Shown: positions 3,508 through 64,000 of the stretch, one piece after another
Numbering within the stretch: position 1 is the stretch's first letter
Layout of the letters: every line of letters starts with the position of its first letter
From: Limimaricola pyoseonensis
GTDB taxonomy: Bacteria; Pseudomonadota; Alphaproteobacteria; Rhodobacterales; Rhodobacteraceae
Direction of reading: 5' to 3'
Assembly: GCF_900102015.1 (NCBI RefSeq)
Contig: NZ_FNAT01000001.1
Location: 372,001-436,000 of the forward strand
Length of the DNA stretch: 64,000 bases
The notes under the pieces: generated by a model
What the model was told of the DNA's origin: nothing
Database searches by the model: none
Seen by the model: only the letters and a program-made list of their open reading frames with translations
Program-made: the position numbers and the translations under genes

Positions 3508-6285
<2,778 letters not shown>

Positions 6286-16641: not shown

Positions 16642-16760
16642 GTCTCTGCCCCTCAAGTGATGTGTCCGTCGCCCTTGTCGCCGGGCGATCGCCGGCACGA
16701 TAGGCGAGCCGCCGCCGGCTGTCATCCGCCGACGGCCGGCCATGTCCCGTTCGGCGGGTC

Positions 16761-17762
16761 TCAGCCCGCCATGGCCCGCGCCGCCCGCGGCGCGAAATAG
16801 GTGAGAACCCCGTCGCAGCCGGCGCGGCGGAAGGCCAGGAGGCTCTCCATCATCACCCGGTCGCCGTCGAGCCAGCCGTTCTGCGCCGCCGCCTCGATCA
16901 TCGCGTACTCGCCGGAGACCTGATAGGCGAAGAGCGGCACGCCGAACTCGTCCTTGGCGCGGCGGCACAGATCGAGATAGGACATGCCCGGCTTGACCAT
17001 CACCATGTCCGCCCCCTCGGCGATGTCGCGCGCCACCATGCGCAGCGCCTCGCGCGGGTTCGCCGGGTCGACCTGGTAGGTCTTCTTGTCGCCCTTGAGC
17101 GCGCCGCTCGCGCCCACCGCGTCGCGGAACGGGCCGTAGAAGGCCGAGGCGAACTTCGCGGCGTAGCTCAGGATCGAGACATGTCCGTGCCCCTCGGCCT
17201 CGAGCGCGGCGCGGATCGCGCCGATCCGGCCGTCCATCATGTCCGAGGGCCCGAGGATGTCGGCGCCGGCGCGCGCCTGCGCCAGCGCCATCTTCACCAG
17301 CGCCTCGACCGTGCGGTCGTTGACGATCTCGCCATCCTCGACGAAGCCGTCATGGCCGTTGATGTTGTAGGGGTCGAGCGCGATGTCGGTCATCAGCGCC
17401 ATCTCGGGCACCGCGTCCTTGATCGCCCGGATCGCGGTGTTGGTCAGGTTGTCGTCCGACCACGCCTCGGCGCAGTCCTCGGTGCGGCTCTCGATCCCGG
17501 TGTAGGGAAACAGGCACATCGCCGGGATGCCGAGATCGCGCGCCTCGCGCGCCGCCTTGACCGCGCGGTCGACGGTGCGGCGGGTGACGCCGGGCATCGA
17601 GGCGATGGCGCTTTCCTCGTCGCGGCCCGCCTGCAGGAAGATCGGCCAGATCAGGTTGTCGGGCGTCATCGCGGTCTCGCGCACCATGGCGCGCAGGGCA
17701 GGGGTGCGGCGCAGTCGGCGCGGCCGGGCGAGCGGGTAGCTGGCGGTGGGGAACTGCGGCAT
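16761..17762 (-). CDS. hemB: Delta-aminolevulinic acid dehydratase (porphobilinogen synthase)
   Basis: This 333-residue enzyme condenses two 5-aminolevulinate molecules to porphobilinogen in heme and chlorophyll synthesis. The active-site lysines are in SYAAKFASAFYG (about residue 203) and MVMVKPGMSYLD (about residue 255). The metal-binding region reads IALDPYNINGHDGFV, with aspartates where zinc enzymes have cysteines, so this is the Mg/K-dependent type common in Alphaproteobacteria. The N-terminus (RPRRLRRTPALRAMVRET) is also standard. The gene is transcribed leftward, alone, and diverges from the small membrane-protein gene at 17899. Confidence 0.97.
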   Translation of the reverse strand: MPQFPTASYPLARPRRLRRTPALRAMVRETAMTPDNLIWPIFLQAGRDEESAIASMPGVTRRTVDRAVKAAREARDLGIPAMCLFPYTGIESRTEDCAEAWSDDNLTNTAIRAIKDAVPEMALMTDIALDPYNINGHDGFVEDGEIVNDRTVEALVKMALAQARAGADILGPSDMMDGRIGAIRAALEAEGHGHVSILSYAAKFASAFYGPFRDAVGASGALKGDKKTYQVDPANPREALRMVARDIAEGADMVMVKPGMSYLDLCRRAKDEFGVPLFAYQVSGEYAMIEAAAQNGWLDGDRVMMESLLAFRRAGCDGVLTYFAPRAARAMAG

Positions 17763-48698: not shown

Positions 48699-48819
48699 AA
48701 CCTGCCTCGGAGCGCACCGGCCATGACACCGACGCGAACCCGACGCGACACAGACGCAATACCGATCCGGCCCGATGCGCACCTCGCCGCCTCGGGCTTC
48801 GACAATTGAAGGCACTGCC

Positions 48820-50283
48820 ATGCCCACGCTCCCGATCGTCCTGATCGTCCTGGCCATCGCCGTCGCCGCCTATCTGCTTGCCCGGAGTCGCGCCCAGCGC
48901 GCCGCCGCGCGAGAGGGGCGCAGGCTGCATTCCCTCCCGAACTATTACGGCTGGACCGGCGCGCTCTACGCCGCGGGCCCGGCACTGCTGCTGCTGGCCG
49001 TGTGGCTGGTCGCCCAGCCCGTCGCCACCCGCATGGCGGTCTGGCCGGTGCTCGAGGCCGAGGCCGCGCCGAACGCGCAGCCGGCTCTGCTGATGGCCGA
49101 CGTGCAGCGGCTCGCCGCGGGGATCGACGCCGCGGTCGCGTCCGGGCGCGTTCCGGCCGCCGAGGCCGGCGACATCCCGGCCGAAGAGCTTCGCGAGCTG
49201 ATGGCCGGGCAGGGCGTGGCCCTGGGCAGCGACGTCACCCCCGCGACCCGGCAGGCGGCGCTGCGCTGGCGCGGGCTGAGCGCGGGTGGCGATCTGGCCC
49301 GCACCCTCGCCGTGATCGGCCTCGCGCTCGTGGGGGCGGCCTTCGGCGTCAGCCGCGCCAAGCCTGATTTCCGCGCCCGCAACGCGGTCGAGACGGCGAT
49401 GCGCGGCACGCTGATCGGCGCGGCGCTGCTGGCGATCCTGACCACCGTGGGCATCGTGCTGGCGCTGATCTTCAACACCATCGAGTTCTTCCGCCTCTAC
49501 CCGGCGGCCGAGTTCTTCTTCGGCTCCACATGGAGCCCGAGCTTCGGCGGCGGCTCCGAGCTGGGTATCCTGCCGCTTCTGTGGGGCACGCTCTACATCT
49601 CGATCATCGCGCTCTTGGTGGCGGTGCCGATCGGCCTCTTCGCGGCGATCTACCTCGCCGAATACGCCCACAAGAACGTCCGCAGCTGGGCCAAGCCGAT
49701 GCTCGAGATGCTCGCCGGCATCCCGACCATCGTCTACGGCCTCTTCGCGCTCCTGACCGTCGGCCCGCTGCTGGTCGACCTGTTCGGCCGCAATGGCGCG
49801 CTCGGGGTGAACTGGATGCAGGGCGGCACCGCGGTGATGACCGCCGGTCTCGTCATGGGCATCATGCTGATCCCCTTCGTCAGCTCGCTGTCGGACGACA
49901 TCATCAATGCCGTGCCGCAGAGCTTGCGTGACGGCAGCCTCGGCCTCGGCGCGACGCGTTCGGAAACGGTGCGCCAGGTGGTGCTGCCCGCGGCGCTGCC
50001 CGGCATCGTCGGCGCGGTGCTGCTGGCCGCCTCGCGCGCCATCGGCGAGACCATGATCGTGGTGCTGGGCGCAGGCGCCGCGGCGCGTCTGTCGATGAAC
50101 CCGTTCGACGCGATGACCACGGTGACCGCCAAGATCGTGAGCCAGCTCACCGGCGACGCCGATTTCTCCTCGCCCGAGGCGCTGGTCGCCTTCGCCCTCG
50201 GCATGACCCTCTTCGTGATCACCCTGGCGCTGAACGTCGTCGCGCTGTGGATCGTGCGCCGCTACAGGGAGCAGTACGAATGA
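48820..50283 (+). CDS. pstC: Phosphate ABC transporter permease PstC
   Basis: This 487-residue membrane protein is longer than E. coli PstC (319) because of an N-terminal extension of two membrane helices and a soluble segment (about residues 85-165) containing AEAAPNAQPALLMADVQRLAAG by position. The permease core has six helices and the coupling loop SLRDGSLGLGATRSETVRQVVLPAALPG near residue 370. AIGETMIVVLGAG follows. Extended PstC proteins of this kind are usual in Rhodobacteraceae. The ATG at 48820 is preferred over one at 48775. The stop overlaps pstA by ATGA. Confidence 0.93.
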   Translation: MPTLPIVLIVLAIAVAAYLLARSRAQRAAAREGRRLHSLPNYYGWTGALYAAGPALLLLAVWLVAQPVATRMAVWPVLEAEAAPNAQPALLMADVQRLAAGIDAAVASGRVPAAEAGDIPAEELRELMAGQGVALGSDVTPATRQAALRWRGLSAGGDLARTLAVIGLALVGAAFGVSRAKPDFRARNAVETAMRGTLIGAALLAILTTVGIVLALIFNTIEFFRLYPAAEFFFGSTWSPSFGGGSELGILPLLWGTLYISIIALLVAVPIGLFAAIYLAEYAHKNVRSWAKPMLEMLAGIPTIVYGLFALLTVGPLLVDLFGRNGALGVNWMQGGTAVMTAGLVMGIMLIPFVSSLSDDIINAVPQSLRDGSLGLGATRSETVRQVVLPAALPGIVGAVLLAASRAIGETMIVVLGAGAAARLSMNPFDAMTTVTAKIVSQLTGDADFSSPEALVAFALGMTLFVITLALNVVALWIVRRYREQYE

Positions 50284-51638
50284 CCGACATCACCGACAGC
50301 GCGGCGCAGCCCGAGCGCCGCGAAACCGGCCGCTCCATCCTCGAGGCCGACGCCCGCACCAAGAAACGCAACCGCGCCGAGACCCGGTTCAAGGCCTACG
50401 GCATCGCCGCGCTCGGCGTGGGCGGGCTGTTCCTGATCGCGCTGCTCTGGGCGATCCTGTCGAACGGCCTCACCGCCTTCACACAGACCTACGTTCAGCT
50501 CGACGTGCCGCTGATCGAGGAGAAGCTCGACAAGGACGGCGACCGCGACCCGGCGAAGATCGCCAAGGTCTCGACCTTCGGCTACAACCCGCTGATCGAG
50601 CAGGCGCTGGTCGAACTGGTCGAACGCGAGGGGCTGGAGACCGAGCTGGAGCCGAAGGCGCTGACCAAGATGCTCTCGGGCGCCGCCGCCGCCGACATCC
50701 GCGATCGCGTGCTCGCCAATCCCGAGCTGATCGGCCAGACCGTGAGCTTCGAGGTGCTCGCCTCCTCGCGGGTCGACGGCTACCTCAAGGGCCGCGTCAG
50801 CCGCGAGAGCCTGGCGCGCGACAAGAACCTCGACGCCGAGCATCTCGACCTGATCGACGCGCTGCAGCAGACCGGCGCGGTGGAAAAGCGCTTCAACTGG
50901 GCCTTCATCACCGGCGCCGACGCCTCCGATTCCCGTCCCGAGCAGGCCGGGATCGGCGTCGCCATGCTGGGCTCGCTCTTCATGATGCTGGTGGTGCTGG
51001 TGCTGTCGCTGCCGATCGGCGTCGCCGCCTCGATCTATCTCGAGGAGTTCGCGCCGCAGAACCGGCTGACCGACCTGATCGAGGTGAACATCTCCAACCT
51101 CGCGGCCGTGCCCTCGATCGTCTTCGGCATCCTCGGCCTCGCGGTGTTCATCCAGTTCATGCACCTGCCGCAATCGGCGCCGCTGGTCGGTGGCCTCGTG
51201 CTGACGCTGATGACGCTGCCCACCATCATCATCTCGACCCGCGCCGCGCTGAAGGCGGTGCCGCCCTCGATCCGCGACGCGGCGCTCGGCGTGGGCGCCT
51301 CGAAGATGCAGTCGGTGATGCACCACGTGCTGCCGCTGGCGATGCCCGGCATCCTCACCGGCACCATCCTCGGCCTCGCGCAGGCGCTTGGCGAGACCGC
51401 GCCGCTGCTCCTGATCGGCATGGTGGGCTATATTGCCACCAACTACCCCGACGGCGTGGCCGAGGGCTTCCTCGCGCCGAACTCGGCGATGCCCGCGCAG
51501 ATCTACGAATGGGCCAAGCGGGCCGACCCGGCCTTCTACGAGCGCGCCTGGGGCGGGATCATCGTGCTGCTGGTGTTCCTGCTGGCGATGAACCTGCTGG
51601 CGATCCTGCTGCGCCGCCGCTTCGAGCGCCGCTGGTAA
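50280..51638 (+). CDS. pstA: Phosphate ABC transporter permease PstA
   Basis: This 452-residue permease partner of PstC is also extended relative to E. coli. It has a membrane helix near residue 45 and then an extracytoplasmic region of about 180 residues ([21 protein letters not shown] onward by position). The C-terminal core includes [18 protein letters not shown] near residue 245, [40 protein letters not shown] near residue 335 (coupling loop) and [12 protein letters not shown]. It begins inside the pstC stop, and pstB starts 19 bases after it. Confidence 0.93.
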
Positions 51639-51657
51639 GCGGAAAGGACAGACCGAC

Positions 51658-52452
51658 ATGAACGACATGCGAACCATGGACAACGCCGTGAACCACGACA
51701 CCAAGATCACCGCGCGCGACGTGCACGTGCATTACGGCACCACCCACGCCATCAAGGGCGTGGACGTCGACATCGCCGACCGCACCGTCACCGCCTTCAT
51801 CGGCCCGTCGGGCTGCGGCAAGTCGACCTTCCTGCGCTGCCTGAACCGGATGAACGACACCATCCCCGGCGCGCTGGTCACCGGCGAGATCAAGATCGAC
51901 GAGGCCGACATCTACGACCCGCGGGTCGACCCGGTGCAGCTGCGCGCCAAGGTCGGCATGGTGTTCCAGAAGCCGAACCCCTTCCCGAAGTCGATCTACG
52001 ACAACGTCGCCTACGGCCCGAAGATTCACGGCATGGCCAGGAACAAGGCCGATCTCGACGAGATCGTCGAGAAGGCGTTGCGCCGCGGCGCGATCTGGGA
52101 CGAGGTGAAGGACCGCCTGCACGCGCCCGGCACCGGCCTCTCGGGCGGCCAGCAGCAGCGGCTCTGCATCGCCCGCGCGGTGGCGACCGAGCCCGAGATC
52201 CTCTTGATGGACGAGCCCTGCTCGGCGCTCGACCCGATCGCCACGGCGCAGGTCGAGGAGCTGATCGACGAGCTGAAGCAGAACTTCTCGGTGGTGATCG
52301 TGACCCACTCGATGCAGCAGGCCGCGCGCGTCAGCCAGCGCACCGCCTTCTTCCATCTCGGCCATCTCGTCGAGTTCGGCGAGACCGGCAAGATTTTCAC
52401 CAACCCCGAGGACAGCCGCACCGAAAGCTACATTTCGGGCCGCATCGGGTAA
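51658..52452 (+). CDS. pstB: Phosphate ABC transporter ATPase PstB
   Basis: This 264-residue ATPase energises phosphate uptake. Walker A is GPSGCGKST near residue 47. [14 protein letters not shown] and [20 protein letters not shown] are PstB-specific. The signature is [14 protein letters not shown] near residue 162 and Walker B is [12 protein letters not shown] near residue 182. [10 protein letters not shown] also fits. AAAGGA precedes the ATG. It completes PstSCAB and lies 11 bases before phoU. Confidence 0.97.
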
Positions 52453-52463
52453 GGAGCAGGGAC

Positions 52464-53177
52464 ATGCAGGAAAAGCAGCACATCGCCTCGGCCTTCGACC
52501 GCGACCTCGAATCGATCCAGGCGCTGATCCTGAAGATGGGCGGCATGGTCGAGGCCGCGATCCTCGACGGCGCGCAGAGCCTCGCCGACCGCGACGTCGA
52601 GGCGGCCGAGAAGGTCCGCCGCGGCGACAAGGCGATCGACGCGCTCGAGGAGCAGCTCAACGAGGAGGCCGCCCGTGTCATCGCGATCCGCGCGCCCGTC
52701 AGCCGCGACCTCAGGGTGATCCTGTCGGTGCTGCGGCTCGCCGCCAGCCTCGAGCGGATCGGCGACTACGCCAAGAACATGGCCAAGCGCACCAGCGTGC
52801 TGGCCGAGCTGCACCCGATCGAGGGCTCGGACGCGGCGCTCAAGCGGATGGCGCGCGAGGTGCAGAACATGCTGCGCGACACGCTCGACGCCTTCGTCAA
52901 CCGCGACCCCGGGCTCGCGCACGAGGTGCTGCTGCGCGACCAGGAGGTCGACCAGATGTACAACGCGCTGTTCCGCGAGTTCCTGACCCACATGATGGAG
53001 GACCCGCGCGCCATCACCGCCTGCATGCACCTGCACTTCATCGCCAAGAACATCGAGCGGATGGGTGATCTGGTGACCAACATGGCCGAGCAGGTGATCT
53101 ACCTCGCCACCGGCAAGATGCCCGACGAGGACCGTCCGAAGGGCGACACCACCGCCTACGTCGCCCAGCCGGAGTGA
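52464..53177 (+). CDS. phoU: Phosphate-specific transport accessory protein PhoU
   Basis: This 237-residue all-helical protein has two PhoU repeats, each with the metal-binding ExxxD pattern (VRRGDKAIDALEEQLNEEAARV near residue 52, and VLLRDQEVDQMYNALFREFLTHM near residue 155). ERIGDYAKNMAKR (about residue 95) and ERMGDLVTNMAEQVIYLATG (about residue 196) are classic signatures. PhoU links the Pst transporter to PhoR to silence the regulon when phosphate is plentiful. It lies between pstB and phoB with gaps of 11 and 4 bases. Confidence 0.97.
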   Translation: MQEKQHIASAFDRDLESIQALILKMGGMVEAAILDGAQSLADRDVEAAEKVRRGDKAIDALEEQLNEEAARVIAIRAPVSRDLRVILSVLRLAASLERIGDYAKNMAKRTSVLAELHPIEGSDAALKRMAREVQNMLRDTLDAFVNRDPGLAHEVLLRDQEVDQMYNALFREFLTHMMEDPRAITACMHLHFIAKNIERMGDLVTNMAEQVIYLATGKMPDEDRPKGDTTAYVAQPE

Positions 53178-53181
53178 GACC

Positions 53182-53871
53182 ATGGCCGAGCTGCAGCCGC
53201 ATGTGCTGATCGTCGAGGACGAGGCCGCGCAGCGCGCGGTGCTGGCCTACAACCTCGAATCCGAGGGCTTCCGGATCTCCGAGGCCGAGGACGGCGACAC
53301 GGCGCTGTTGCTGGTGGCCGAGGAGGCGCCCGATCTCGTGGTGCTCGACTGGATGCTGCCGGGCGTGTCGGGGATCGAGATCTGCCGGCGGCTGAAGACC
53401 CGGCCCGAGACCCGGGACGTGCCGGTGATCATGCTCTCGGCCCGCTCCGAGGAGGTCGACCGGGTGCGCGGGCTCGAGACCGGGGCGGACGACTACGTGG
53501 TCAAGCCCTACTCGGTGACCGAGCTGATGGCGCGGGTGAAGGGGCAGCTGCGCCGCACCCGCCCGGCCAGCGTCGGCCAGACGCTGCGCTTCGAGGGTAT
53601 CGAGCTCGACGCCGAGACCCACCGGGTGCGGCGCGACGGCCATGACGTGAAGCTCGGGCCCACCGAGTTCCGGCTGCTCGCCACCTTCCTCGAGAAGCCC
53701 GGCCGGGTCTGGAGCCGCGAGCAGCTGCTCGACCGGGTCTGGGGCCGCGAGGTCTATGTCGACACCCGCACCGTCGATGTCCATATCGGCCGGCTCCGCA
53801 AGGCGCTGCGCGCCCATGGCGGCGCCGATCCGCTGCGCACCGTGCGCGGCGCCGGCTACGCGCTGGGATAG
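53182..53871 (+). CDS. phoB: Phosphate regulon response regulator PhoB
   Basis: This is a 229-residue OmpR/PhoB-type response regulator. The receiver has the acid pair Glu12/Asp13, the phospho-accepting Asp56 in LVVLDWMLPG and the conserved Lys in VVKPYSVTEL. The C-terminal winged helix has LGPTEFRLLATFLEKPGRVWSREQLLDRVWG and TVDVHIGRLRKAL. It binds Pho boxes such as the one at 47506-47538, so it should activate its own operon. It ends 3 bases from the stop of the convergent 174-residue gene. Confidence 0.96.
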   Translation: MAELQPHVLIVEDEAAQRAVLAYNLESEGFRISEAEDGDTALLLVAEEAPDLVVLDWMLPGVSGIEICRRLKTRPETRDVPVIMLSARSEEVDRVRGLETGADDYVVKPYSVTELMARVKGQLRRTRPASVGQTLRFEGIELDAETHRVRRDGHDVKLGPTEFRLLATFLEKPGRVWSREQLLDRVWGREVYVDTRTVDVHIGRLRKALRAHGGADPLRTVRGAGYALG

Positions 53872-53874
53872 GGG

Positions 53875-54399
53875 TCAGACCGGGTAGCCCTCGTCGCCGA
53901 TCAGGGACCAGATGTCGCGGTTGAGCAGTTGCAACGCCGCGATCGTCCCATTGATCTCGGCCAGCGCCGCGTCGTCGATCGCGGCGCTCTGGCCCATCTT
54001 CACCTTGGTCTTGCGATCCGCGATCCGCATGGTGATCGTGCGCGCCGCGCCGCCTTCTGCGTCGAATGCGTAGAGCGCGTGGTTGTAGCGGTTGCGCAGC
54101 GCCTGATGCCGCCGGATGCGACCGGTGATGTCGAGCAACCGGCTCAGCGTCTCCGGCGCGATCTCCTGCGACTTGGCCAGCCGCTCCACGAGATCGAGCC
54201 GCGCCCGGGCGGTGTTCAGCGTGAGGAAGATGATCGTCGCGTTCTGCGTGCCGGTGCCGGCGAGTCCCGCGATGAGATGGATCAGCAGGCTCTCGGTGTT
54301 GGTCCAGCAATAGTTCATCCGTCCGACCAGCAGCAGCAGCCGGTCGAACTCGCCCAGCTCCTGCACCGGGTCGGCCGGATGCGGCTGCGGCCCGGTCAT
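53875..54399 (-). CDS. Unrecognised 174-residue protein with HEPN-like motif
   Basis: I do not recognise the family by name. The protein is mostly helical. It contains FDRLLLLVGRMNYCWTNTESLLIHLIAG, LTLNTARARLDLVERLAKS, and then RIRRHQALRNRYNHALYAFD near residue 110-125. RNRYNH fits the R-x4-6-H signature of HEPN domains, many of which are ribonucleases or nucleotide-binding helpers, and the polar residue after Arg is the preferred Asn. The C-terminal half (INGTIAALQLLNRDIWSLI) is another helix pair. The start is the ATG at 54399, which overlaps the stop of the LuxR-type gene (ATGA), so the two proteins are made together. Confidence 0.55.
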   Translation of the reverse strand: MTGPQPHPADPVQELGEFDRLLLLVGRMNYCWTNTESLLIHLIAGLAGTGTQNATIIFLTLNTARARLDLVERLAKSQEIAPETLSRLLDITGRIRRHQALRNRYNHALYAFDAEGGAARTITMRIADRKTKVKMGQSAAIDDAALAEINGTIAALQLLNRDIWSLIGDEGYPV

Positions 54400-55160
54400 G
54401 GTGGATCCGCCTGGCCCGCCTCGACCTGCGCCAGATACCAGATCGCGGCCCCGGTGCGGTTCGAGACGCCGAGCTTGCCGATCAGGTGATGGATATGCAG
54501 CTTGACGGTGTGCTCGGACAGGCCGAGCTCGGCCGCGACGATCTTGTTCTGCTTGCCCTCGGCCAGCAGGGTCAGCACCTGCCATTCCCGCGGGGTCAGG
54601 CTGCGACCGAGTTGCTGGGACTCCTCGTCCACCGGCGGGGCGGGGCCGCCGGCCGCGGTGGTGTCCGGGGCCGCCCCCTGCGACGCCAGGAACTCGCGCA
54701 TCAGCCTTTCGGGATAGAACACCTCGCCGCAGAGCAGCAGGCGCATGACCGATGTCAGGACCTCGATCTGCACGTTGAGGGGAAACAGGCCGATCCGCGG
54801 CAGCGTCGCGCTGCCGGTCAGCCCCGCCAGCAGGTCGCGCGCGGGCGGCGCCGAGCTGTAGGCGAGCGCCAGCATGTCGGCCCGGCTCTGGGCGGCCAGC
54901 TCCTTGAGCCCGGACATGCCCTTGAGCTGCCGCTCGTCGATCACGGCGAGCTTGCAGCTGCCCTGACCCGGCCCGGTCATCCGCAAAGCGGCGAGATCGG
55001 GCAGGCGCAGGAATGTCAGACTTCGGAATTCCGCCGAGAAGACATCCAGCATTCCACCGGGAAAGCAGAACTCGTCGCCAATGAAATAAACCGAGGCATC
55101 TTGGCAGATCGGCAGATTTTCGATTTGCCCATTTGCGGGGGGGCGGGCGCTTAGAGTCAC
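54396..55160 (-). CDS. LuxR-type regulator with receiver-like N-terminal domain
   Basis: This regulator is 254 residues if the GTG at 55160 is used; an ATG at 55280 would add 40 residues, including a hydrophobic run that looks like translated leader. The C-terminal GerE helix-turn-helix is clear: LTPREWQVLTLLAEGKQN, then AAELGLSEHTVKLHIHHLIGKLGV. The N-terminal part (ASVYFIGDEFCFPGGMLDVF, KLAVIDERQL) reads like a degenerate receiver domain of the CsgD/VpsT kind, which control biofilm matrix genes. It is transcribed away from the large secreted repeat protein and is the most likely regulator of that locus. It is translationally coupled to the HEPN-like gene. Confidence 0.8.
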   Translation of the reverse strand: MTLSARPPANGQIENLPICQDASVYFIGDEFCFPGGMLDVFSAEFRSLTFLRLPDLAALRMTGPGQGSCKLAVIDERQLKGMSGLKELAAQSRADMLALAYSSAPPARDLLAGLTGSATLPRIGLFPLNVQIEVLTSVMRLLLCGEVFYPERLMREFLASQGAAPDTTAAGGPAPPVDEESQQLGRSLTPREWQVLTLLAEGKQNKIVAAELGLSEHTVKLHIHHLIGKLGVSNRTGAAIWYLAQVEAGQADPP

Positions 55161-55280
55161 GATAACACCTGAAACACAAAAACAAAGGAGCGCGAAAAGA
55201 ACCTGTACGAGTCGATAGTACGGTCTCGACCCGATGGGTGACATAGACCGAAAGGTGAGAGCCGTGAAGCGGGTCGGCAA

Positions 55281-55800
55281 GGGTGTGTACGGTCCTTGAA
55301 GGCAATGACACTGCGTTGCCCGCCAGGAAACAAAGGATGAATAATAGGTTAATGTCGCTTCATTGCGCTCAATTCGCCGATCAGGCGTCCCCCCGGCCTG
55401 ATTTCATGTTTCAGCGGGTCACAGAGTGTTGAAGAGAAGCGGCGCGAAGAGGTTCTACCCAAGCGTGACGGGCGCTCCGGCGCGGGCCCCGGTTGGGTGT
55501 AATCCGATTTTCCGGGCTGAATCCTCCGGCCAAGCGCGCAGACTTGGCTGACCCCGAAGTCCGAGCCACTCGCCACCTTTCGGACCACGCGTTTATCCGA
55601 CGATCCGGAATGCGAATTGGCTCTCTCGGGCAGTTGTTTGCAGGTGGAGGAGAGGTCGTAATCCATGGATGATCCCCGGGCTTTCCGTCCGGGGAGGTGC
55701 CGTTCGGCACCGAATTTTTCCCAAATCGATGCAATCGCATGATCACCGCGTTTGAGATGAATGGCGGTGCGGCGATGGCGCTCGTTCAGGAGATCGAGAC
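55281..55800. other. Long leader region before the repeat-protein gene
   Basis: No convincing gene lies in these 520 bases; the frames that stay open have no family features. The first 100 bases are comparatively AT-rich (TAATAGGTTAAT near 55345) and could hold divergent promoters. Two hairpins stand close together at 55674-55694 and 55696-55711, and the second is followed by a T-run. The ribosome site AGGAG (55789-55793) precedes the ATG at 55801. This is a candidate structured 5' leader. Confidence 0.45.
55696..55719 (+). terminator. Terminator-like hairpin upstream of the repeat-protein gene
   Basis: A 7-base-pair perfect stem (55696-55702 with 55705-55711) around TT is followed by GAATTTTT. 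It lies 82 bases before the ATG at 55801, directly after another stem (CCCCGG 55674-55679 with CCGGGG 55689-55694). It may act as an attenuator. Confidence 0.45.
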
Positions 55801-58761
55801 ATGGCAACGCGCAACAACAACATCATTGGCTGGGGAGACGGCGAAAGCGGCCCCGTCAACGAGATCAACGGCAACCAGGAACAGACCATCATCAACGGCG
55901 AAGCCGTCGAGAACGGTGAGGTCGAGGTGGCCGAGGAGCTGGTCGCGAACGGCGATGCCGACGGCTACGCGGACCAGAACCAGAACCAGAACCAAAATCA
56001 GAACCAAAACCAGAACCAAAATCAGAACCAGAGCCAGAGCCAGGCGCAAAGCGACAGCGGCGCGGGCAGCGACAGCGCGAGCGCGGCCGAAGCCGCGGCG
56101 CTGGCCGACAGCATCAGCACAAGCGACAGCGCCAGCTCGAGTGACAGCTCGAGCGCCAGCGATGTCGATGTGGATGTCGCGGTGCAGGTCGATGTCGGCG
56201 TGGCGCTCGAAGGCGCGAATGACGACGACGTCGCCGATTTCGACCTCGACAATTCGACCACCGGCGACATCGCCGTGGCCGGCGGCGATCTGCATTACGA
56301 TCCCGGCGACGACTTCACCATGAGCGACATCATCACCGAGTCGCTCAACGGCGAGGGCAATGACGCCGGCTTCGTGAACGTGCTCAAGAACGTGCTCGAT
56401 GACAATGACACGCTCGACAGCGCCGAGGTCACCAACGAGTCGAGCTTCAACCAGAACGGCACCGCGACGGGCGGCACCGCCACGGCCGATGACGGCATTT
56501 CGGTCGACACCAATGGCGGCACCGGCGGCAGCAATGCCGAAAGCCTGGGCGGCAACGCCGATGGCGGCACGGCCAATGGCGGCACGGCCAACGCGACGGC
56601 CAACAGCGCCAATGGCGGCAACGCCGACGCGCAGGGCGGCAACAGCGGCGAGTCCGGCACGGCGAACGCCACGGGCCATCAGGTCGATGCCGGCGACGTC
56701 GACTCGAACGCCAACAGCACCGGCGGCAACAGCGGCGAGAACACCGCCAACAACAACGCCGACAGCAACGCCAACAACACGACCGACGCCAATGGCAACG
56801 GCGGCAACGGCGGCAATTCGAACTCGACCAACAACAGCAACGCCAACAGCGACTCCGACGTCAACGACAACACGACCGCCGGGAACTCCGGCAATGCCGA
56901 CGCGGCCGCGACGCTGAACAGCGACAACGACGCGACCAGCGACAACCAGTCCGATGGCGGCGACAGCGGCAACGCGAACTCCGATGCCGACGCCAATGCC
57001 GATGCCGACTCGAACTCGGATGCAGATGCCACAGGCGGCAATTCCGGCATGGTGGACGGCGATACCGCGGTCGATACGGCGGCCGCCAATGACAGCAACG
57101 TCGAAGCCGCCGGCGACAGGGGCGGTGACATCGCGGCCAGCAACGACATCGACGGCAATGCCACCTCCGATGGCGACGGCAACGGCAATGGCGGCGAGAG
57201 CGGCGATGCCAATGGCGCTGGCGACGCGGCGGCCGAAGGCGCGGCCGAGGCGGCCGTCACCAACGAGGCCGGCTATGGCGGCGAGAACACCTCGACCGCG
57301 ACCGGCGATGGCGACGGCACCGGCGATGGCGACGGCACCGGCGATGGCGACGGCACCGGCGATGGCGACGGCACCGGCGATGGCGACGGCACCGGCGATG
57401 GTGACGGCACCGGCGATGGTGACGGCACTGGCGATGGTGACGGTACCGCCGACGCGGACGCCACGGCCGATGGCGATGGCGGCGATGCCAATGCCGACTC
57501 GCAATCGACCGTGACCGCCACTGCCAGCCCGGGCGCCGTGACCGGCACCTCGACCGCGACCGGCGGCACGGGCGGCATGGGCGGCAACAATCCCGCCACC
57601 GCCGACTCTGACGGCACGGGCACCGGCACCGGAACCGGAACCGGCGAAGGCACCGGAACGGGTGAAGGCACCGGAACCGGGACCGGCACCGGCACGGGTG
57701 AAGGCACCGGTGAAGGCACGGGTGAAGGCACCGGCACCGGCACCGGCACGGGCACCGGCATGGCCGAAGGCATGGCCGGCGACGGCGGTGCGGCCAACGC
57801 GACCGGCGGGCCGAACAGCAACAGCTCGGCCGCCACGGGCACCGGCACCGGCACCTCCGGCATGACCGGCGCCGGAACCGGCATGACCGACAACGAGGCC
57901 GATAACAGCGGCACCGGTTCCAACGAGGCCACCACCGGCGAAGGCGGTGACGGCGACGCGGCGAACGACACCGACGCGATGGCGACCGGAACGGGCAGCA
58001 CGGACGGCGCCTCCGGGGCCGGCGGCGCGGCCGATGCCGCCAACGACGCCGACGCCACCACGACGAACGCCTCCGACTCGGCGGCGACCTCGGGTGACGG
58101 CGGGGCCGGCAACGGGACGTCGGGTGCCGACGCGTCGAGCGCCGACGCCAATGCCGCCGACGCGGCCAGCGGCTACGGCGGCGCGGCGAGCTCCGACACC
58201 GACACCACCACCGACAGCATGGCCGACGGCTATGCCGACGGCGACGGTGGTTACGGCGGCATGTCGGATATCGCGATCGAGGCCCTGGCCGAGTCGATGG
58301 CCGAGGCGGAGAGCGCGCAGACCAGCGGTGACGGTGGTGCCTCCACGGCCACGGCCGATGCCACGAGCAACGGCGCGGCCATGGGCGACGTCATGGCGAC
58401 CAGTGGCGAGACCGGCGACACGATGACCACGGCCACCGGCGGCATGGGTGGCGCGGCCAGTGTCGACAACACCACCGGCGGCGCAGGCACCAATGGCGAC
58501 GTCATGGGAGGCGCCGGCGGCGCTGCCATGAACGGCGACGGCGGGGCCGGCGGCAATGCCGGGACCTGGGGCTCCTCGAACGGTGACGACTCCTACATCA
58601 CCGGCGAGAGCTACGCCTCCGCGGCCGCGGCCGTGAACCAGGAGGCCTTCACGCAGGAGATCGTGATGGGGGCCAACGTGCTGGGCAACACCGTCGACAT
58701 GAACGTCGTCGGCGGCTCGTTCAGCTCGAACTACGTGGGTGAGGACGGCGACGGTATGTGA
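55801..58761 (+). CDS. Giant acidic Q/N/G/D/T-rich low-complexity protein, probably type I-secreted
   Basis: This 986-residue protein has no Sec signal, no cysteine, and only one Lys (196) and two Arg (4 and 440). Asp, Gly, Ala, Asn, Ser and Thr dominate. Residues 59-76 are nine Gln-Asn pairs, followed by SQSQAQ. A Ser/Asp-rich part and a more ordered part (about 125-210, with [20 protein letters not shown]) come next. Then come long N/G/T/A repeats, eight exact GDGDGT units (502-549), a (GT)n/GEGT array (about 606-660), and a folded-looking C-terminus ([20 protein letters not shown]). The bulk acidity and T1SS genes downstream suggest export by a C-terminal signal and calcium-dependent assembly outside. 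The Q/N tract recalls amyloid or matrix proteins. Function is not proven, and I know no named family. Confidence 0.8.
55975..56028 (+). repeat. Nine tandem Gln-Asn codon pairs
   Basis: Nine CAR-AAY dipeptide units (QN)9 run without interruption, then QS-QS-QA-QS to 56052. CAG/CAA and AAC/AAT alternate between copies, so selection seems to keep the peptide rather than the DNA. Confidence 0.95.
57304..57447 (+). repeat. Eight 18-base tandem repeats (GDGDGT units)
   Basis: Eight consecutive copies of an 18-base unit reading GGCGATGGCGACGGCACC encode GDGDGT. The first five copies are identical; the last three have one to three GGT/GTA-type changes. In-frame unit gain or loss would alter protein length. 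Confidence 0.95.
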
Positions 58762-58775
58762 TCGCCGGACAGGAG

Positions 58776-58805
58776 GGGCGGGGGCCGCACGGCCCCCGCC
58801 CATTT
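58776..58805 (+). terminator. Strong hairpin after the repeat-protein gene
   Basis: A 12-base-pair G+C stem (58776-58787 with 58790-58801) with a CA loop lies 14 bases after the stop and is followed by ATTTC. It probably ends or attenuates most transcripts of the abundant secreted protein, leaving less for the secretion genes. Confidence 0.65.
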
Positions 58806-58892
58806 CGGGTCCGCCTGCCCTGAGCAGGCATCGGCCCGCCGGCATGGTCCGGGCGACCGTGCCGCGCGCATTTCGGGAGCGGCGTTTCGATC

Positions 58893-61205
58893 ATGTCCAT
58901 GGACCGTACGACCGATACCATCGCTCACTTCATCGGCCTCTTCGGACAACTCGAGGAGGCCGCGCGTCTGAGGGAAGGGTTCGAAGGCTTCGAGCCGTAC
59001 CCGGACGCCGACGCATCGCCCGATGCGCTGCGTTTCACGCCGCTTCAGGTATCGCAGAGCTATCGGCTCGAGGATCTCTCGCCGGTGGTCGACTACCACC
59101 CCCTGCCACCGAACAATTACGACATCGTTGCGATCCCGTCGCAGCCGCGGCTGCCGGAGGCGCTGGCAAAGCCCTGGCCGGGCATCTCGGAAGAGCCGCC
59201 GCTGGTGAAGGAGATCCTGCTCGCGGCATCCCTCAGAACCGAGCTTCTGCCGCTCGAGATGCCGCCGCCCTCGGCGATGCACGGGCTGCACGTGCTGACC
59301 AACAGGCTCGAGGATGCCGATGCCTTCGGGATCGGGGCGGCGGGGGTCGCGGCGCTGCACGCGGCCGCCGAGGCGCAGGGCGAGCTTCTGGTGCAGCTGG
59401 CCGGGCAGGCGCAGATGCTTGCGGCCATCCCGCCATTGGGCCTGCCGGGCGATCTGCCGACCGACTGGGCCGGACTAGCGGAGGAATTGCAGGCCCGCGC
59501 CGAGGCGGTGGCCGCCGCCATCCCCGGCGCGGCGCTGCATCTGGGTGCCGCGGCCGGCGGCGTGCATGTCGACGGCGCGCCCGCCGACGAGATGCCGGAC
59601 TGGCTGACGCTGTGGCCGGCGATGCTGCGCGACGGCAAGGATGATGCCGATACCGACCCGGAGGACCCGCCCGGCCACGATCAAGACGCCGACATGGCGC
59701 GCGCGCTCGATGCCGTGGCCGAGGCCGCGGGCGACGCGGCGCCGGCCGGGGCAGGGCCCGAGGGGCAGGGCTTCGTGACGGGCGGAAACAGGCTGGTCAA
59801 CGAAGTGGTGGTCACCAGCGACTGGCTCGACGCGTCCTACTTCGTGGTCGGCGGCGCGGCGCGGCATCTCGACGCCGTCTCGCAGCTCAACATGATGTCT
59901 GACCGCGATGTCGGGCTGGGCGAGGGCGGAGAGGCCTCCCGCGCCGTCAACGCCGCTCGCATCGTCACCGAATCCCGGCCCGCCACGCCGCCGCCCGACG
60001 CCGATGACGCGCCGGCGCATAGCGGCGGGCCGTCGCATTGGGCGCTGGCGCGGCTCAGCGGGGATCTCGTCCAGATCAACGACGTGCGCCAGGTGAACCT
60101 CGTCAACGACACCGACCACGCGGCGCTGCGCTTCACCGCCGGCGACAGCCGGATCGTGCTGGGCGAGAACAGCGCCAGCAACCTCGCGCTCATGGACGCG
60201 TTCGGCTGGCGCTTCGACCTCGTCTTCGTCGGCGGCGACATGGTGGACATGACCATGCTGCGGCAGATCAACCTGCTGCTCGACGACGACGAGGCGGTGC
60301 CGTCGCTTGCCGAGGCGGAAGGCCCGGTGCAGCCGGTCGATCTCGCCTCGCAGCAGGCCGCCACCACCGCCGAAGGGGTCGCCGTCTCCGACGCGCCGCT
60401 CTCCGGCCTCGACCCGGTGCTGCCAAACGACGAGCGGAGCGAGCCCCTTGCGGAAGAGGTGGAGCCAGCGGGCGGGCAGGAGATCGAACCGACGCAAGCC
60501 AAGGTCACGCAGGCCAAGGTCACGCAGGCCCCGGCCGATGACATCGCTGCACCTGCCGCAGCGCCGGCGCCAGCGCCGCAGTCGCCGCCGGCGGCCGTGC
60601 AGGGCGGCGACAACCTTCTCTACAACGGCGCGACGCTCAAGACGGTCGGACGGGATGTCGAGGCCGAGCTGCCGGAGATGCTGCGGGACGTGCACGACAC
60701 GCTCGCCGAGAGGGCGGAGGCCTTGCCCGAGGCCTTGCTCGGTCTCGACATCTTCGACGGGATCGAGCTTCTCAAGGTGCTGCTGATCGAGGGCGACTTC
60801 ATCACCCTGAACCGGTTCGACCAGTTCAACATGCTGGCCGATTCCGACCGGATCACGGGGCTGGCCGAGGCGCTGGAGGCCGTCGCCGAGGCCGAGGTCG
60901 TGACCGGCTCGAACCTTCTGGCCAACCACGCCACGCTGACCGATCTCGGCGTCGACAGCCAGATCGCGGCCGGGCAGGGCGTCTATGACGACCTCCTGCT
61001 CTACCAGGCCGAGCTGCTCGACACCGATGCCGCCCCGACCGGGGTCGGCCTGACCGATCTGGCCGGCGAGGCGGTGGCCTTCCTGGCCGACGGCATGATC
61101 GACCCGGCCGCCGAACCCCTCGCCGAGGCCCAGGCCGAGATCGCGGCGGGGATCGCCGCCGCCTCCGCCAGCCCGACTGACCTGTTGCAGACCATGCTGA
61201 GCTGA
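58893..61205 (+). CDS. Type I secretion-associated protein with four Q-x-N-x3-D-x-D repeats
   Basis: This 770-residue acidic protein has no signal peptide or membrane helix. An N-terminal part (about 1-250) is rich in Leu, Pro and Glu. Then four copies of a motif Q-x-N-[ML]-x2-D-x-D appear at Gln331, Gln400, Gln458 and Gln644, three of them following a G-x-V or G-D-[FLM] hydrophobic strand. N-x-L-x-N motifs (N299, N574, N674) stand before or between them. A proline/alanine linker (about 545-570) divides the repeats. I recall similar proteins being labelled 'type I secretion protein' next to T1SS genes. It could be a secreted partner of the 986-residue protein, a nucleator, or an intracellular chaperone. 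The ATG 58893 and the nearby 58899 are both possible. The next gene starts 11 bases after its stop. Confidence 0.7.
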   Translation: MSMDRTTDTIAHFIGLFGQLEEAARLREGFEGFEPYPDADASPDALRFTPLQVSQSYRLEDLSPVVDYHPLPPNNYDIVAIPSQPRLPEALAKPWPGISEEPPLVKEILLAASLRTELLPLEMPPPSAMHGLHVLTNRLEDADAFGIGAAGVAALHAAAEAQGELLVQLAGQAQMLAAIPPLGLPGDLPTDWAGLAEELQARAEAVAAAIPGAALHLGAAAGGVHVDGAPADEMPDWLTLWPAMLRDGKDDADTDPEDPPGHDQDADMARALDAVAEAAGDAAPAGAGPEGQGFVTGGNRLVNEVVVTSDWLDASYFVVGGAARHLDAVSQLNMMSDRDVGLGEGGEASRAVNAARIVTESRPATPPPDADDAPAHSGGPSHWALARLSGDLVQINDVRQVNLVNDTDHAALRFTAGDSRIVLGENSASNLALMDAFGWRFDLVFVGGDMVDMTMLRQINLLLDDDEAVPSLAEAEGPVQPVDLASQQAATTAEGVAVSDAPLSGLDPVLPNDERSEPLAEEVEPAGGQEIEPTQAKVTQAKVTQAPADDIAAPAAAPAPAPQSPPAAVQGGDNLLYNGATLKTVGRDVEAELPEMLRDVHDTLAERAEALPEALLGLDIFDGIELLKVLLIEGDFITLNRFDQFNMLADSDRITGLAEALEAVAEAEVVTGSNLLANHATLTDLGVDSQIAAGQGVYDDLLLYQAELLDTDAAPTGVGLTDLAGEAVAFLADGMIDPAAEPLAEAQAEIAAGIAAASASPTDLLQTMLS

Positions 61206-61216
61206 GAAAGGCCGAC

Positions 61217-63358
61217 ATGTCGCCGCATAACTCCGCCGCCACATTGCGTCTCGTTCCCGCGCACAGGGTCGTGCCGCCCCGATTGGTGCGCCTGCCGCGC
61301 TTCCTGACCGGCCCGTCGCCGATGGCGCGATGGCTGGCCCGTCACCGCATCGCGGCCGAGCGGCCCCGGCCGCCCGAGCCGCCGGGCGAGGCGCCGGCGG
61401 GCACCGCGCCGCAGGGGCGCATCACGCCCGCCAGCCCCTTGCCGGGCCCGGTGATCGAGGCCGATCGCGGCCCGATCCGCCGGCCGCCGACGCCGCCCGA
61501 GGAGCGGCGCCGCGAACCCGGCGGCGGCGGTGGCGGGGCAGGCGGCGCGGCGCCGCCACGCTTCCACAAGCCGGTCGGGCCGGAGGATTTCGGCCGGGCG
61601 CTGCGGCTCGGGGTGCAGGCGGTGCGGCGCAATCTCGGGCTGGTGATGGTGCTGACCTGCGCCACAAACCTGCTGATCCTCGCCATCCCGATCTACCTGT
61701 TCCAGATCTCGGACCGGGTGCTGACCAGCCGATCGGTCGACACGCTGGTGATGCTGACCATCGTGATCGCGGCGGCGGTGGTGCTGCAGGCGGTGTTCGA
61801 CGCGGTCCGGCGCTTCGTGCTGATGCGCACCGCCGTCGAGGTCGCCGCCCGGCTCGGCGCCCCGATCCTGAGCGCGGCCTCGGCCGCCGCGCTGCACGGC
61901 ACGGGGCGCGAATACCAGACGCTGGGCGATCTGCAGCAGCTGCGCGGCTTCATCGTCTCGGGCACGCTCCTGTCCTTCCTCGACGTGCCCTTCGCGCCGC
62001 TGTTCATCCTCGCGATCTACTTCGTGCACCCGCATCTGGGGACCATCGTGGTCGGCACCTCGCTGGCGCTTCTGGTCATCACGCTGATCAACCAGAAGCT
62101 CACCGCGCGGCCCTTCGCCGAGGCCAATGCCGCGCAGAGCCGGGCCAACCTGCACCTCGATTCCATGTCGCGCAACAGCCAGATCATCAACGCGCTCGCG
62201 ATGATCCCCGAGGCAGTGCGGATCTGGGGCCGCGACACCGCCACCTCGCTCACCGCCCAGGTCCACGCGCAGGACCGCAACATCGCGGCCTCGGCCGCCT
62301 CGCGCGCGGTGCGGCTGCTCACCCAGGTCGCGATGCTGGGCTGGGGCGCCTATCTGGCGATCTTGGGCGAGATCACCGGCGGCATGGTGATCGCCGCCTC
62401 GATCATCGCGGGCCGGGCACTGGCGCCGATCGAGGGCGCGATCGAGGGCTGGAGCGGTTACGCGCAGGCCCGCGCCGCCTATGGCCGTATCGCCGGACTG
62501 CTGACCGGCTCGAAGCTGCAGTTCGAGCGGCTGAACCTGCCCAACCCCGAGGGCCGGCTCGATGTCGAGCGGCTGCTCTACGTGCCGGGCGGCACCAAGC
62601 AGGTGGTGCTGAACGGCGTCAGCTTCGCGCTCACGCCCGGCGAAAGCCTCGCGATCATCGGCAATTCGGGGGCCGGCAAGACCACGCTCGGCAAGATGCT
62701 GGTGGGATCGATCCTGCCGACCTCGGGCAATGTCCGGCTCGACCTGATGGACCTGCGCAACTGGGATCCGCGGCAGCTGGGCGAGAATATCGGCTACCTG
62801 CCGCAGGACGTGCAGCTCTTTCCCGGCAGCATCAAGGACAACATCGGCCGGATGCGGCTGGACGCGACGGATGCGCAGATCTACGCGGCCGCGCGGCTCG
62901 CCGATGTGCACGAGATGATCGCCAACCTGCCGCAGGGCTACGAGACGGTGGTGGCCGCCGACGGCGCGCCGCTCTCGGGCGGGCAGAAGCAGCGCATCGC
63001 CCTGGCGCGGGCCTTCTTCGGAGAGCCGCGCTTCGTGGTGCTCGACGAGCCGAACTCCAACCTCGACAGCGCCGGTGACAAGGCGCTGGCGCAGGCGCTC
63101 AGGCACGCCAAGGAAAACCGGATCACCGTGGTCGTGGTGACCCAGAAACCGACGCTGCTCACCGTGGTCGACAAGATCATGCTGCTTGCCGATGGCAGCA
63201 TCCAGATGTTCGGCGAACGCATGCAGGTGCTGCAGCGGCTGGCGGGTGACAAGGCGCCGCGACCGGCGCCGCGCGCACCGGGACCGAGCCAGGTGCCGGG
63301 GCAGGGACCGGGTCAGGATCCGGGCAAGAATCCGGGGCAGGGAGGGCCGAAATCATGA
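61217..63358 (+). CDS. Type I secretion ABC transporter (permease/ATPase, PrtD-like)
   Basis: This 713-residue fused transporter powers type I export. A 115-residue Pro/Arg/Gly-rich N-terminal extension precedes the membrane domain (about 130-400; LVMVLTCATNLLILAIPIYLFQISDRVLTS by position), which resembles PrtD rather than HlyB since no C39-like domain is present. The ATPase has Walker A GNSGAGKTT near residue 490, signature LSGGQKQRIALARA near 590, Walker B FVVLDEPNSNLD near 612, and an H-loop position occupied by VVTQKPTLL, with Gln in place of the usual His. A Pro/Gly/Gln-rich tail follows. An ATGA overlap links it to the HlyD gene. The substrate is probably encoded in the two genes upstream. 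Confidence 0.92.
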   Translation: MSPHNSAATLRLVPAHRVVPPRLVRLPRFLTGPSPMARWLARHRIAAERPRPPEPPGEAPAGTAPQGRITPASPLPGPVIEADRGPIRRPPTPPEERRREPGGGGGGAGGAAPPRFHKPVGPEDFGRALRLGVQAVRRNLGLVMVLTCATNLLILAIPIYLFQISDRVLTSRSVDTLVMLTIVIAAAVVLQAVFDAVRRFVLMRTAVEVAARLGAPILSAASAAALHGTGREYQTLGDLQQLRGFIVSGTLLSFLDVPFAPLFILAIYFVHPHLGTIVVGTSLALLVITLINQKLTARPFAEANAAQSRANLHLDSMSRNSQIINALAMIPEAVRIWGRDTATSLTAQVHAQDRNIAASAASRAVRLLTQVAMLGWGAYLAILGEITGGMVIAASIIAGRALAPIEGAIEGWSGYAQARAAYGRIAGLLTGSKLQFERLNLPNPEGRLDVERLLYVPGGTKQVVLNGVSFALTPGESLAIIGNSGAGKTTLGKMLVGSILPTSGNVRLDLMDLRNWDPRQLGENIGYLPQDVQLFPGSIKDNIGRMRLDATDAQIYAAARLADVHEMIANLPQGYETVVAADGAPLSGGQKQRIALARAFFGEPRFVVLDEPNSNLDSAGDKALAQALRHAKENRITVVVVTQKPTLLTVVDKIMLLADGSIQMFGERMQVLQRLAGDKAPRPAPRAPGPSQVPGQGPGQDPGKNPGQGGPKS

Positions 63359-64000
63359 GCCTGCAGCAGGTCGAAAGCGGTGAATGGTTCGCCGAGGTGC
63401 CGCGCTCGGTGCGCGGCCACGCGATCTTCGGGATCGTGCTGCTGATCCTCACCTTCGGCGGCTTCGGGCTCTGGGCGTTCCAGGCACCGCTGGCCGCCGC
63501 CGTGATCGCGCCGGGCAGCTTCGTCGCCACCGGCCAGAACAAGATCGTCCAGCATCTCGAGGGCGGGATCATCGAGGAGATCCTCGTCGACGAGGGCGAC
63601 CGGGTCGAGGCCGGGCAGCTTCTGCTGCGGCTCGACGGCACGCAGGCGGCGGCGGCCGAGCGCGAGCTGCAGCTGCGCCAATGGCGGCTCGAGGCGACCG
63701 AGGCGCGTCTGCTGGCCGAGGAACAGGGGCTGGAGGCGATCCGCTTCCCGGCGCATCTGGAGGCCGCGCGCGGCGATTTCGCCGTGGCGGGCATCCTCGA
63801 CGGGCAGGAGCTGTCCTTCCGGGTGTCGCGCGGCGCGCATGAGAACGATCTCGCGCTGCTCGAACGCAACATCGAGGCGCTGCGCATCCGCGCCGGCGGC
63901 TACGACACCCAGCTCGAGACGCATCGCCGTCAGCACGCGCTGCTGGTCGAGGAACATGCCGACAAGGAAGCGCTGTTCTCGCGCGGTCTGCTGCGCCGGC
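63355..64000 (+). CDS. HlyD-family type I secretion adaptor, cut by window edge
   Basis: This is the membrane fusion protein that joins the ABC transporter to an outer-membrane channel. The visible 215 residues show one inner-membrane helix (about 24-46), then the biotinyl-lipoyl half domain GQNKIVQHLEGGIIEEILVDEGDRVEAGQLLLRLD and the start of the coiled-coil hairpin rich in Glu, Arg and Leu. It begins with an ATGA overlap in the ABC gene. The stop lies beyond 64000. A TolC-type partner is not in the window. Confidence 0.93.
   Translation, partial: MSLQQVESGEWFAEVPRSVRGHAIFGIVLLILTFGGFGLWAFQAPLAAAVIAPGSFVATGQNKIVQHLEGGIIEEILVDEGDRVEAGQLLLRLDGTQAAAAERELQLRQWRLEATEARLLAEEQGLEAIRFPAHLEAARGDFAVAGILDGQELSFRVSRGAHENDLALLERNIEALRIRAGGYDTQLETHRRQHALLVEEHADKEALFSRGLLRR

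Follow-up and report, generated by a model that had tools for sequence, protein, structure and literature searches.

Among the described systems closest to the locus reported here are curli and Fap. Their subunits carry imperfect repeats with conserved Asn and Gln, according to the consulted sections of two reports (PMC12392863, PMC12822426), and in Fap these repeats are joined by variable linkers (PMC12392863, in the same sections). The Cdz system of Caulobacter is another relevant case, because there an alphaproteobacterial type I secretion system (T1SS) exports two co-encoded proteins and the operons are divergent, as the consulted part of PMC5380434 describes. We compare these systems with a six-gene locus of Limimaricola pyoseonensis, which lies at the end of a stretch of 64,000 nucleotides (G000:C11:372001-436000, hereafter the window) and runs past it. 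Two minus-strand genes, for a HEPN-like protein and a LuxR-type regulator, diverge from four plus-strand genes, which encode a long acidic protein (FIB), a repeat protein (P2), a PrtD-type ABC transporter and an HlyD-type adaptor. By analogy, the locus appears to work like a two-subunit matrix system with a known type of exporter. We reject membership in curli, RTX, Cdz and Fap on the features tested, which were curlin, CsgD and (indirectly) CsgG/E/F, nonapeptide repeats, small substrates and FapBC sequence, respectively. That it is a dedicated T1SS building a two-protein extracellular coat, matrix or fibre is a proposition on which we would place an even bet.

The genes of the locus, all with verified reading frames, are the following.

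53875..54399, minus strand: HEPN-like protein (P0005), 174 aa, with an RNxxxH motif; from the open reading frame (ORF) call and the family alignment
54396..55280, minus strand: LuxR-type regulator (P0004) with a GerE helix-turn-helix (HTH) behind a degenerate receiver-like N-terminus; from Pfam and the family alignment
55281..55800, no strand: divergent intergenic region of 520 bp, the gap between LuxR and FIB
55801..58761, plus strand: FIB (P0001), an acidic protein of 986 aa and low complexity, candidate for a secreted subunit; profile match in related loci
58893..61205, plus strand: P2 (P0002), a beta protein of 770 aa with imperfect repeats that may serve as nucleator or partner subunit; from repeats and predicted model
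61217..63358, plus strand: PrtD-type type I secretion ABC permease/ATPase (P0003), 713 aa; TIGR01842
63355..64000, plus strand: 5' part of the HlyD-type adaptor; TIGR01843 on the whole protein

The HlyD gene is cut by the window end and is whole (444 aa) at L004:355-1689. The start of the HEPN-like gene and the stop of the LuxR gene overlap by 4 nt (ATGA), and the gap between LuxR and FIB is similarly long in most of the 44 related loci measured. An initial annotation of the window had described the same divergent layout, and every frame lies where it was placed. The interval given for the locus, 54396-64000, has the frames right, yet nearly all of the HEPN-like ORF (53875-54399) falls outside it.

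It is firmly established that the gene set is conserved as a unit across marine and soil alphaproteobacteria. We gathered 44 loci through a P2 family scan of a genome collection and built the gene profiles from eight starting loci. The complete set of six genes is present in 40 of the 44 loci, and in 37 it has the same order and orientation. Three loci have all six genes in altered order: the HEPN-like gene lies downstream of HlyD in Rhizobium terricola (L110) and upstream of FIB in L113 and L114. L076, L082, L092 and L100 are incomplete only on the side of a contig end; the L082 contig stops after P2, and the 8-bit match by which this locus enters the ABC tally of 44 is spurious. FIB profile matches lie upstream of P2 in 43 of the 44 loci. 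The genera represented include Limimaricola, Roseobacter, Roseovarius, Ruegeria, Tritonibacter, Epibacterium, Sulfitobacter, Albidovulum, Rhodosalinus and Rhizobium.

The set of loci was chosen through P2, and we therefore carried out a second test with the HEPN-like family over the same 394 genomes of the bacterial family. P2 occurs in 34 of them and the HEPN-like family in 36, all 34 included, and in the shared genomes the two lie on the same contigs (contigs compared by eye). Of the two extra matches, one is a gene 284 bp from a contig end (G307) and the other is weak (6.6e-5; G108). The HEPN-like profile was derived from such loci, which favours their detection; the telling part is the near-total lack of matches elsewhere. 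Co-occurrence of all six genes had been set beforehand as the test by which the grouping could fail, and the grouping withstood it.

Among 385 genomes surveyed in the class, P2 turned up in 2, G583 and the one that holds the window, and it is matched on 32 plasmid records (Ensifer 8, Sinorhizobium 5, Sulfitobacter 5, Paracoccus 5, others). Among six further loci, the full set is present in Cereibacter, Qingshengfaniella, Paracoccus denitrificans and Sulfitobacter faviae, and no LuxR match lies nearby in Sinorhizobium chiapasense (L115) or in G583 (L122). The locus is patchy, since a P2 scan of the same-genus genome G003 gave no match. The genes are no chance ORFs, because they are conserved across genera and the ratio of nonsynonymous to synonymous substitution rates is 0.02-0.49 across six species pairs (HEPN-like and LuxR genes are absent from one pair).

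The exporter genes and the regulator within the unit support the earlier proposal of a dedicated T1SS with its own regulator, as judged from sequence. The ABC protein scores 696.7 bits against the PrtD subfamily model TIGR01842 (cut-off 510), and the complete HlyD protein scores 392.8 bits against TIGR01843 (cut-off 208.65). The ABC proteins of other loci are 56-84% identical to that of the window; the best-scoring other transporter of the window's genome is 39% identical to it. Away from the locus, the genome has one gene for a candidate TolC-type outer membrane partner (283.8 bits, above cut-off).

CsgD, the curli regulator, combines a receiver-like N-terminus with a LuxR-type HTH. Like curli, the locus has a regulator of CsgD-like layout that is divergent from the subunit operon, and two co-encoded proteins with shared motifs and Asn/Gln-patterned imperfect repeats. 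Unlike curli, it uses an ABC protein and HlyD instead of CsgG/E/F, it has a HEPN-like partner, and the FIB subunit is much longer and acidic. The regulator scores 42.9 bits against the CsgD model NF007505 (cut-off 250), over the HTH only. There is no Curlin match in Pfam for FIB or P2 in the window proteins, 22 FIBs and 39 P2s, and the earlier statement that none of the proteins belongs to a curli, cellulose or RTX family holds for this whole set. Indirectly, a CsgG/E/F apparatus in the locus is also countered by the finding that, apart from the six genes, every gene family is limited to at most 7 of 50 loci, although the flanks were not searched with Csg models; these counts come from a home-made gene call that missed some genes (FIB in several loci) and are low.

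FIB consists mainly of G (21%), A (16%), D (13%), T (12%) and N (10%), has no Cys, and carries only 3 K+R against 168 D+E. It had been called a Q/N repeat protein, which is an overstatement given a single short QN tract. Its features in the window are listed below.

55973..56043, plus strand: QN tract, from sequence
56218..56499, plus strand: conserved head module, DDDxxDxDL ... VNVxxNxLxDND ... QNG.A.GG.A....GI; aligns with the P2 motif
57301..57480, plus strand: 18-bp tandem repeat in 10 copies, encoding TGDGDG units; from sequence
58561..58758, plus strand: conserved C-terminal tail with the GANxxxN motif; aligns with P2 around R4

Length varies widely among relatives: the 42 FIB ORFs examined span 324-1633 residues from stop to stop, a set that omits L078 and the second FIB copy of L114 and in which the L092 ORF is perhaps cut by the contig start. 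All 42 have more acidic than basic residues (K+R 0-53, D+E 42-374) and all 42 end in the GANxxxN tail motif. The head module, of about 100 residues, is conserved among relatives as well. No Pfam or NCBIfam model recognises FIB (window protein and 22 relatives), and a sequence search of the Protein Data Bank (PDB) returned nothing or chance matches. We set aside a match of the window FIB to an NCBIfam clumping-factor adhesin (5e-5) as a low-complexity effect because it reaches 21.4 bits against a cut-off of 999; the same match appears in 1 of the 22 relatives (0.019). We also rejected a beta-solenoid fold, since the AlphaFold model of a short ortholog (L096) is disordered, with a mean predicted local distance difference test score (pLDDT) of 46.1. 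The low basic content of FIB would fit a T1SS substrate, given that cationic regions block ABC export in the account of PMC9223453, as far as its consulted part goes.

Two side observations concern FIB genes. In Limimaricola cinnabarinus LL-001 the FIB and LuxR genes are each split over two ORFs (L078:6209-9842 and 5021-5928), which is either a draft-assembly error or decay. FIB-type genes stand in tandem, two each, in L114 (6089-8959) and L122 (6996-9002), and belong to a divergent subtype with the tail LGANIQxN.

P2 contains a repeat of ~48 residues with an Asn/Gln/Asp pattern, roughly GxNxLxNxAxI ... DxIxVxGDxIxxxxIxQxNxLxDxD, in about five copies, some whole and some halves, and before them an N-terminal helix with a conserved IAHFIG. 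We compared hhalign profiles of the copies in 21 pairs with 20 column shuffles each; the highest shuffle score was 18.2, and R2-R4 is the best pair.

59262..59330, plus strand: repeat R1, second half only; repeat profiles
59769..59918, plus strand: repeat R2; R2-R4 hhalign E 1e-14
60036..60128, plus strand: repeat R3, second half; R3-R5b E 4.2e-12
60150..60305, plus strand: repeat R4; repeat profiles
60606..60671, plus strand: repeat R5, first half (R5a); R6-R5a E 3.4e-8
60762..60866, plus strand: repeat R5, second half (R5b); R4-R5b E 1.5e-10
60897..61034, plus strand: repeat R6; R2-R6 E 2.1e-8

P2 is variable in sequence (mean column identity 23% in 39 sequences), and its ORFs exceed 600 residues wherever they are uncut. 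Its invariant columns (n=27) include 9 Asn or Gln and 9 Asp, with three D-x-D pairs among them. In the predicted model 251 of 770 residues have a pLDDT of at least 90 (mean 69.5; predicted template modelling score 0.66), and strands of about 20 residues span the repeats. P2 resembles FapB and FapC, whose long repeats, in the consulted sections of PMC12392863, are imperfect, conserve Asn/Gln/Gly and are separated by linkers that vary greatly in length. It differs from them in lacking a sequence match or a significant fold match, in the kind of exporter, and in the D-x-D end of its repeat. The profile search proposed earlier for the two long proteins gave no Pfam or NCBIfam model for P2 either (window protein and 39 P2s). 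Against PDB sequences P2 has no match at E 1, FapC included, and the repeat unit at E 10 finds only amine oxidases and photosystem chains, the best being a chance-type amine oxidase match (E 0.014) over a VVGG stretch.

One could also argue that P2 is an intracellular chaperone or export accessory of FIB and not a secreted subunit. The conserved helical N-terminus and the gene order FIB-P2-ABC would suit such a role, and motifs resembling those of FIB are possible for a dedicated partner too. However, P2 lacks Cys, has an excess of acidic residues (36 K+R against 127 D+E) and keeps a DVMQSVLA-like C-terminal end, with variants and one invariant Asp, in most loci, as we would expect of a T1SS substrate. 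We therefore consider the chaperone explanation improbable.

FIB and P2 themselves may have motifs in common. For the FIB head, the alignment with P2 scores 31.7, against 21.4 for the highest of 100 column shuffles and 19.0 for the reversed control; for the FIB tail the corresponding values are 30.7, 26.9 and 13.2. This is a weak signal that head and tail may share half-motifs with P2. Together with the imperfect repeats of P2, this favours the curli- or matrix-like logic that had been suggested for the locus, by analogy.

How could such a system work? We infer export of FIB and P2 from the gene order and from the near absence of basic residues in FIB. Both proteins would leave the cell unfolded through ABC, HlyD and TolC. 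Outside, perhaps with Ca2+ bound at the D-x-D sites, the Asn/Gln-patterned repeats of P2 could fold into a beta scaffold, on which FIB might dock or polymerise via the matching half-motifs of its head and tail. The long acidic centre of FIB would then be a hydrated spacer. In outline this resembles the division of labour between CsgB and CsgA or FapB and FapC, with a T1SS as the exporter. A more specific version is that the locus represents a class of T1SS-exported functional amyloids or fibres, in which P2 acts as the nucleator, its imperfect Fap-like Asn/Gln repeats closing with Ca2+-binding D-x-D sites. FIB would be the acidic fibre subunit, variable in length and attached by half-repeats, and the obligate HEPN-like protein would gate expression, perhaps by RNA cutting. 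We put this version forward tentatively.

The same data can be read as an acidic metal-binding coat without ordered fibres, exported by the T1SS. FIB would then be a soluble or loosely attached brush for Ca2+ or other metals and P2 a separate adhesin or anchor, with a role like that of Rap or BapA-type proteins. The predicted disorder and strong acidity of FIB and the three invariant D-x-D pairs of P2 agree with this idea. T1SS matrix proteins of other families do exist in alphaproteobacteria, namely RapD (PMC9298526) and BapA of Paracoccus, according to the parts of these sources consulted. RTX, BapA and Rap matrix proteins have in common with the locus a type I exporter and acidic surface proteins with a possible relation to Ca2+. 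They differ from it in that the 22 FIBs and 39 P2s contain no RTX or other known Pfam domain at E 0.1 (HemolysinCabind: 0 of 22 and 0 of 39; for the window FIB, none at E 1). The Asn/Gln repeat pattern and, as a weak signal, the motifs common to FIB and P2 point to assembly and away from separate roles, and we regard a coat without fibres as somewhat unlikely.

Several observations nevertheless weigh against a two-subunit assembly of FIB and P2. Known amyloid subunits are less acidic than FIB, and the L096 model is disordered throughout, the conserved tail included. The likeness between FIB and P2 is short, with hhalign probabilities of 36% (tail) and 25% (head), and uncut alignments reach a probability of 6.6% (P 0.0056). 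Within P2, the pairs R1-R6, R1-R5a, R3-R6, R3-R5a, R5b-R6 and R5b-R5a fall within their own shuffles, most of them being opposite halves, and the proposed assembly does not account for the first ~290 residues, which are partly helical or of low confidence. A Foldseek search of the P2 model against the PDB has FapC (9u4u) in its top row at E 0.33, probability 0.01 and a template modelling score of 0.03; VIA-align against the PDB gives nothing at Z of at least 2, and Foldseek against viral models gives no significant match. The N-terminal hydrophobic stretch of P2 is moderate, with a value of 1.3 for the window's protein and, over 37 sequences, a median of 1.39 and a maximum of 1.97; that of FIB, computed for the window's protein only, is 0.11 (Kyte-Doolittle, 12 residues). 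The absence of a signal peptide is not proven, because the P2 stretch is moderate and FIB was checked in the window alone. Finally, the role we assign to the HEPN-like protein is a guess, and the polysaccharide genes described below stand beside only 3 of 50 loci examined.

The GerE HTH of the LuxR-type protein covers residues 227-281 (Pfam GerE 2.5e-19; start codon uncertain). Working receivers have an acidic pair and a lysine as their signature, and the consensus of 42 LuxR sequences contains neither. In our model this regulator, whose receiver-like domain has lost the phosphorylatable acidic pair, would switch on the divergent operon. As for its binding site, the palindrome CGGCTNAGCCG lies at a fixed place in the LuxR-FIB gap, but only in L091, L098, L101, L103, L107, L108 and L112. 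We did not use it as a regulator-binding palindrome, as these seven loci are all Ruegeria and it is absent from the window. Another sequence, TTGAAATGA or its complement, occurs in 13 loci, in 12 of them near the FIB ORF start, and is likewise absent from the window.

The label HEPN-like stands in one respect and not in another. The HEPN motif is defined as Rx4-6H, which the RNxxxH of this protein matches, and R102, N103 and H107 are invariant in 27 of 27 sequences. On the other hand, none of the libraries searched, Pfam and NCBIfam included, recognises a HEPN domain or any other model in it, and against PDB sequences the family finds nothing below E 0.069 (a flagellin). As an obligate companion, the protein is probably a cytoplasmic accessory of regulation.

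An obligate small partner next to two substrates and a T1SS is also what contact-dependent killing by Cdz consists of, with CdzC, CdzD, CdzAB and CdzI in Caulobacter (PMC5380434, consulted part). FIB and P2 would then be surface-held toxins and the HEPN-like protein their immunity factor. It is very unlikely that this explanation applies here, for the following reasons. First, CdzC and CdzD are hydrophobic glycine-zipper proteins of 86 and 84 aa, whereas FIB and P2 are large and acidic. Second, CdzI is predicted to have three transmembrane segments (both points from the same part of PMC5380434). Third, the HEPN-like protein is well conserved (mean column identity 57% in 27 sequences, against 23% for P2), unlike a fast-changing immunity partner.

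A literature search, judged by titles and abstract openings, found no published description of the locus. FIB, P2 and the HEPN-like protein carry the label 'hypothetical' in the plasmid records consulted or, for P2 in Sulfitobacter, 'type I secretion protein ATPase'. This putative surface system is conserved and, it appears, previously undescribed, and it occurs in groups of ecological importance (Ruegeria, Sulfitobacter, Roseovarius, Paracoccus, Ensifer). Three of its protein families, those of FIB, P2 and the HEPN-like protein, go unrecognised by annotation libraries. Should fibres form, a nucleator and its subunit would leave the cell together through a T1SS, which is the route of neither curli nor Fap, and the invariant HEPN-like gene would then tie an RNase-type motif to matrix production.

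The neighbourhood of the locus consists of what we take, by sequence, to be phosphate-transport genes and a response regulator upstream, and a second LuxR-type protein followed by tsf and rpsB downstream. The phosphate-transport genes (pstC/pstA/pstB, phoU and phoB-like by sequence; 48775-53871) directly adjoin the locus. A phosphate ABC permease (Pfam) lies downstream of the locus in Paracoccus denitrificans (L118:18129-19076); the other loci viewed have other neighbours. The second LuxR-type protein (234 aa, L004:1872-2576) comes after HlyD and matches autoinducer-binding regulator models over the HTH only, and L035 has a gene like it (16232-16906) beside the locus.

A polysaccharide cassette of homologous UXS, galE and family-2 glycosyltransferase genes adjoins three of the loci, each from a different genus (the name UXS is taken from the L119 annotation).

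L083:15433-20222: polysaccharide cassette, also with a GH26-like gene
L090:16114-20927: polysaccharide cassette, also with a GH26-like gene
L119:222-4190: polysaccharide cassette

Measured against L083, the cassette genes show 56-60% identity. The proposed coat probably has a link to an exopolysaccharide in some species. The cassette lies on the HlyD side in two loci and on the HEPN side in the third, a change of side which suggests that the linkage itself is selected for.

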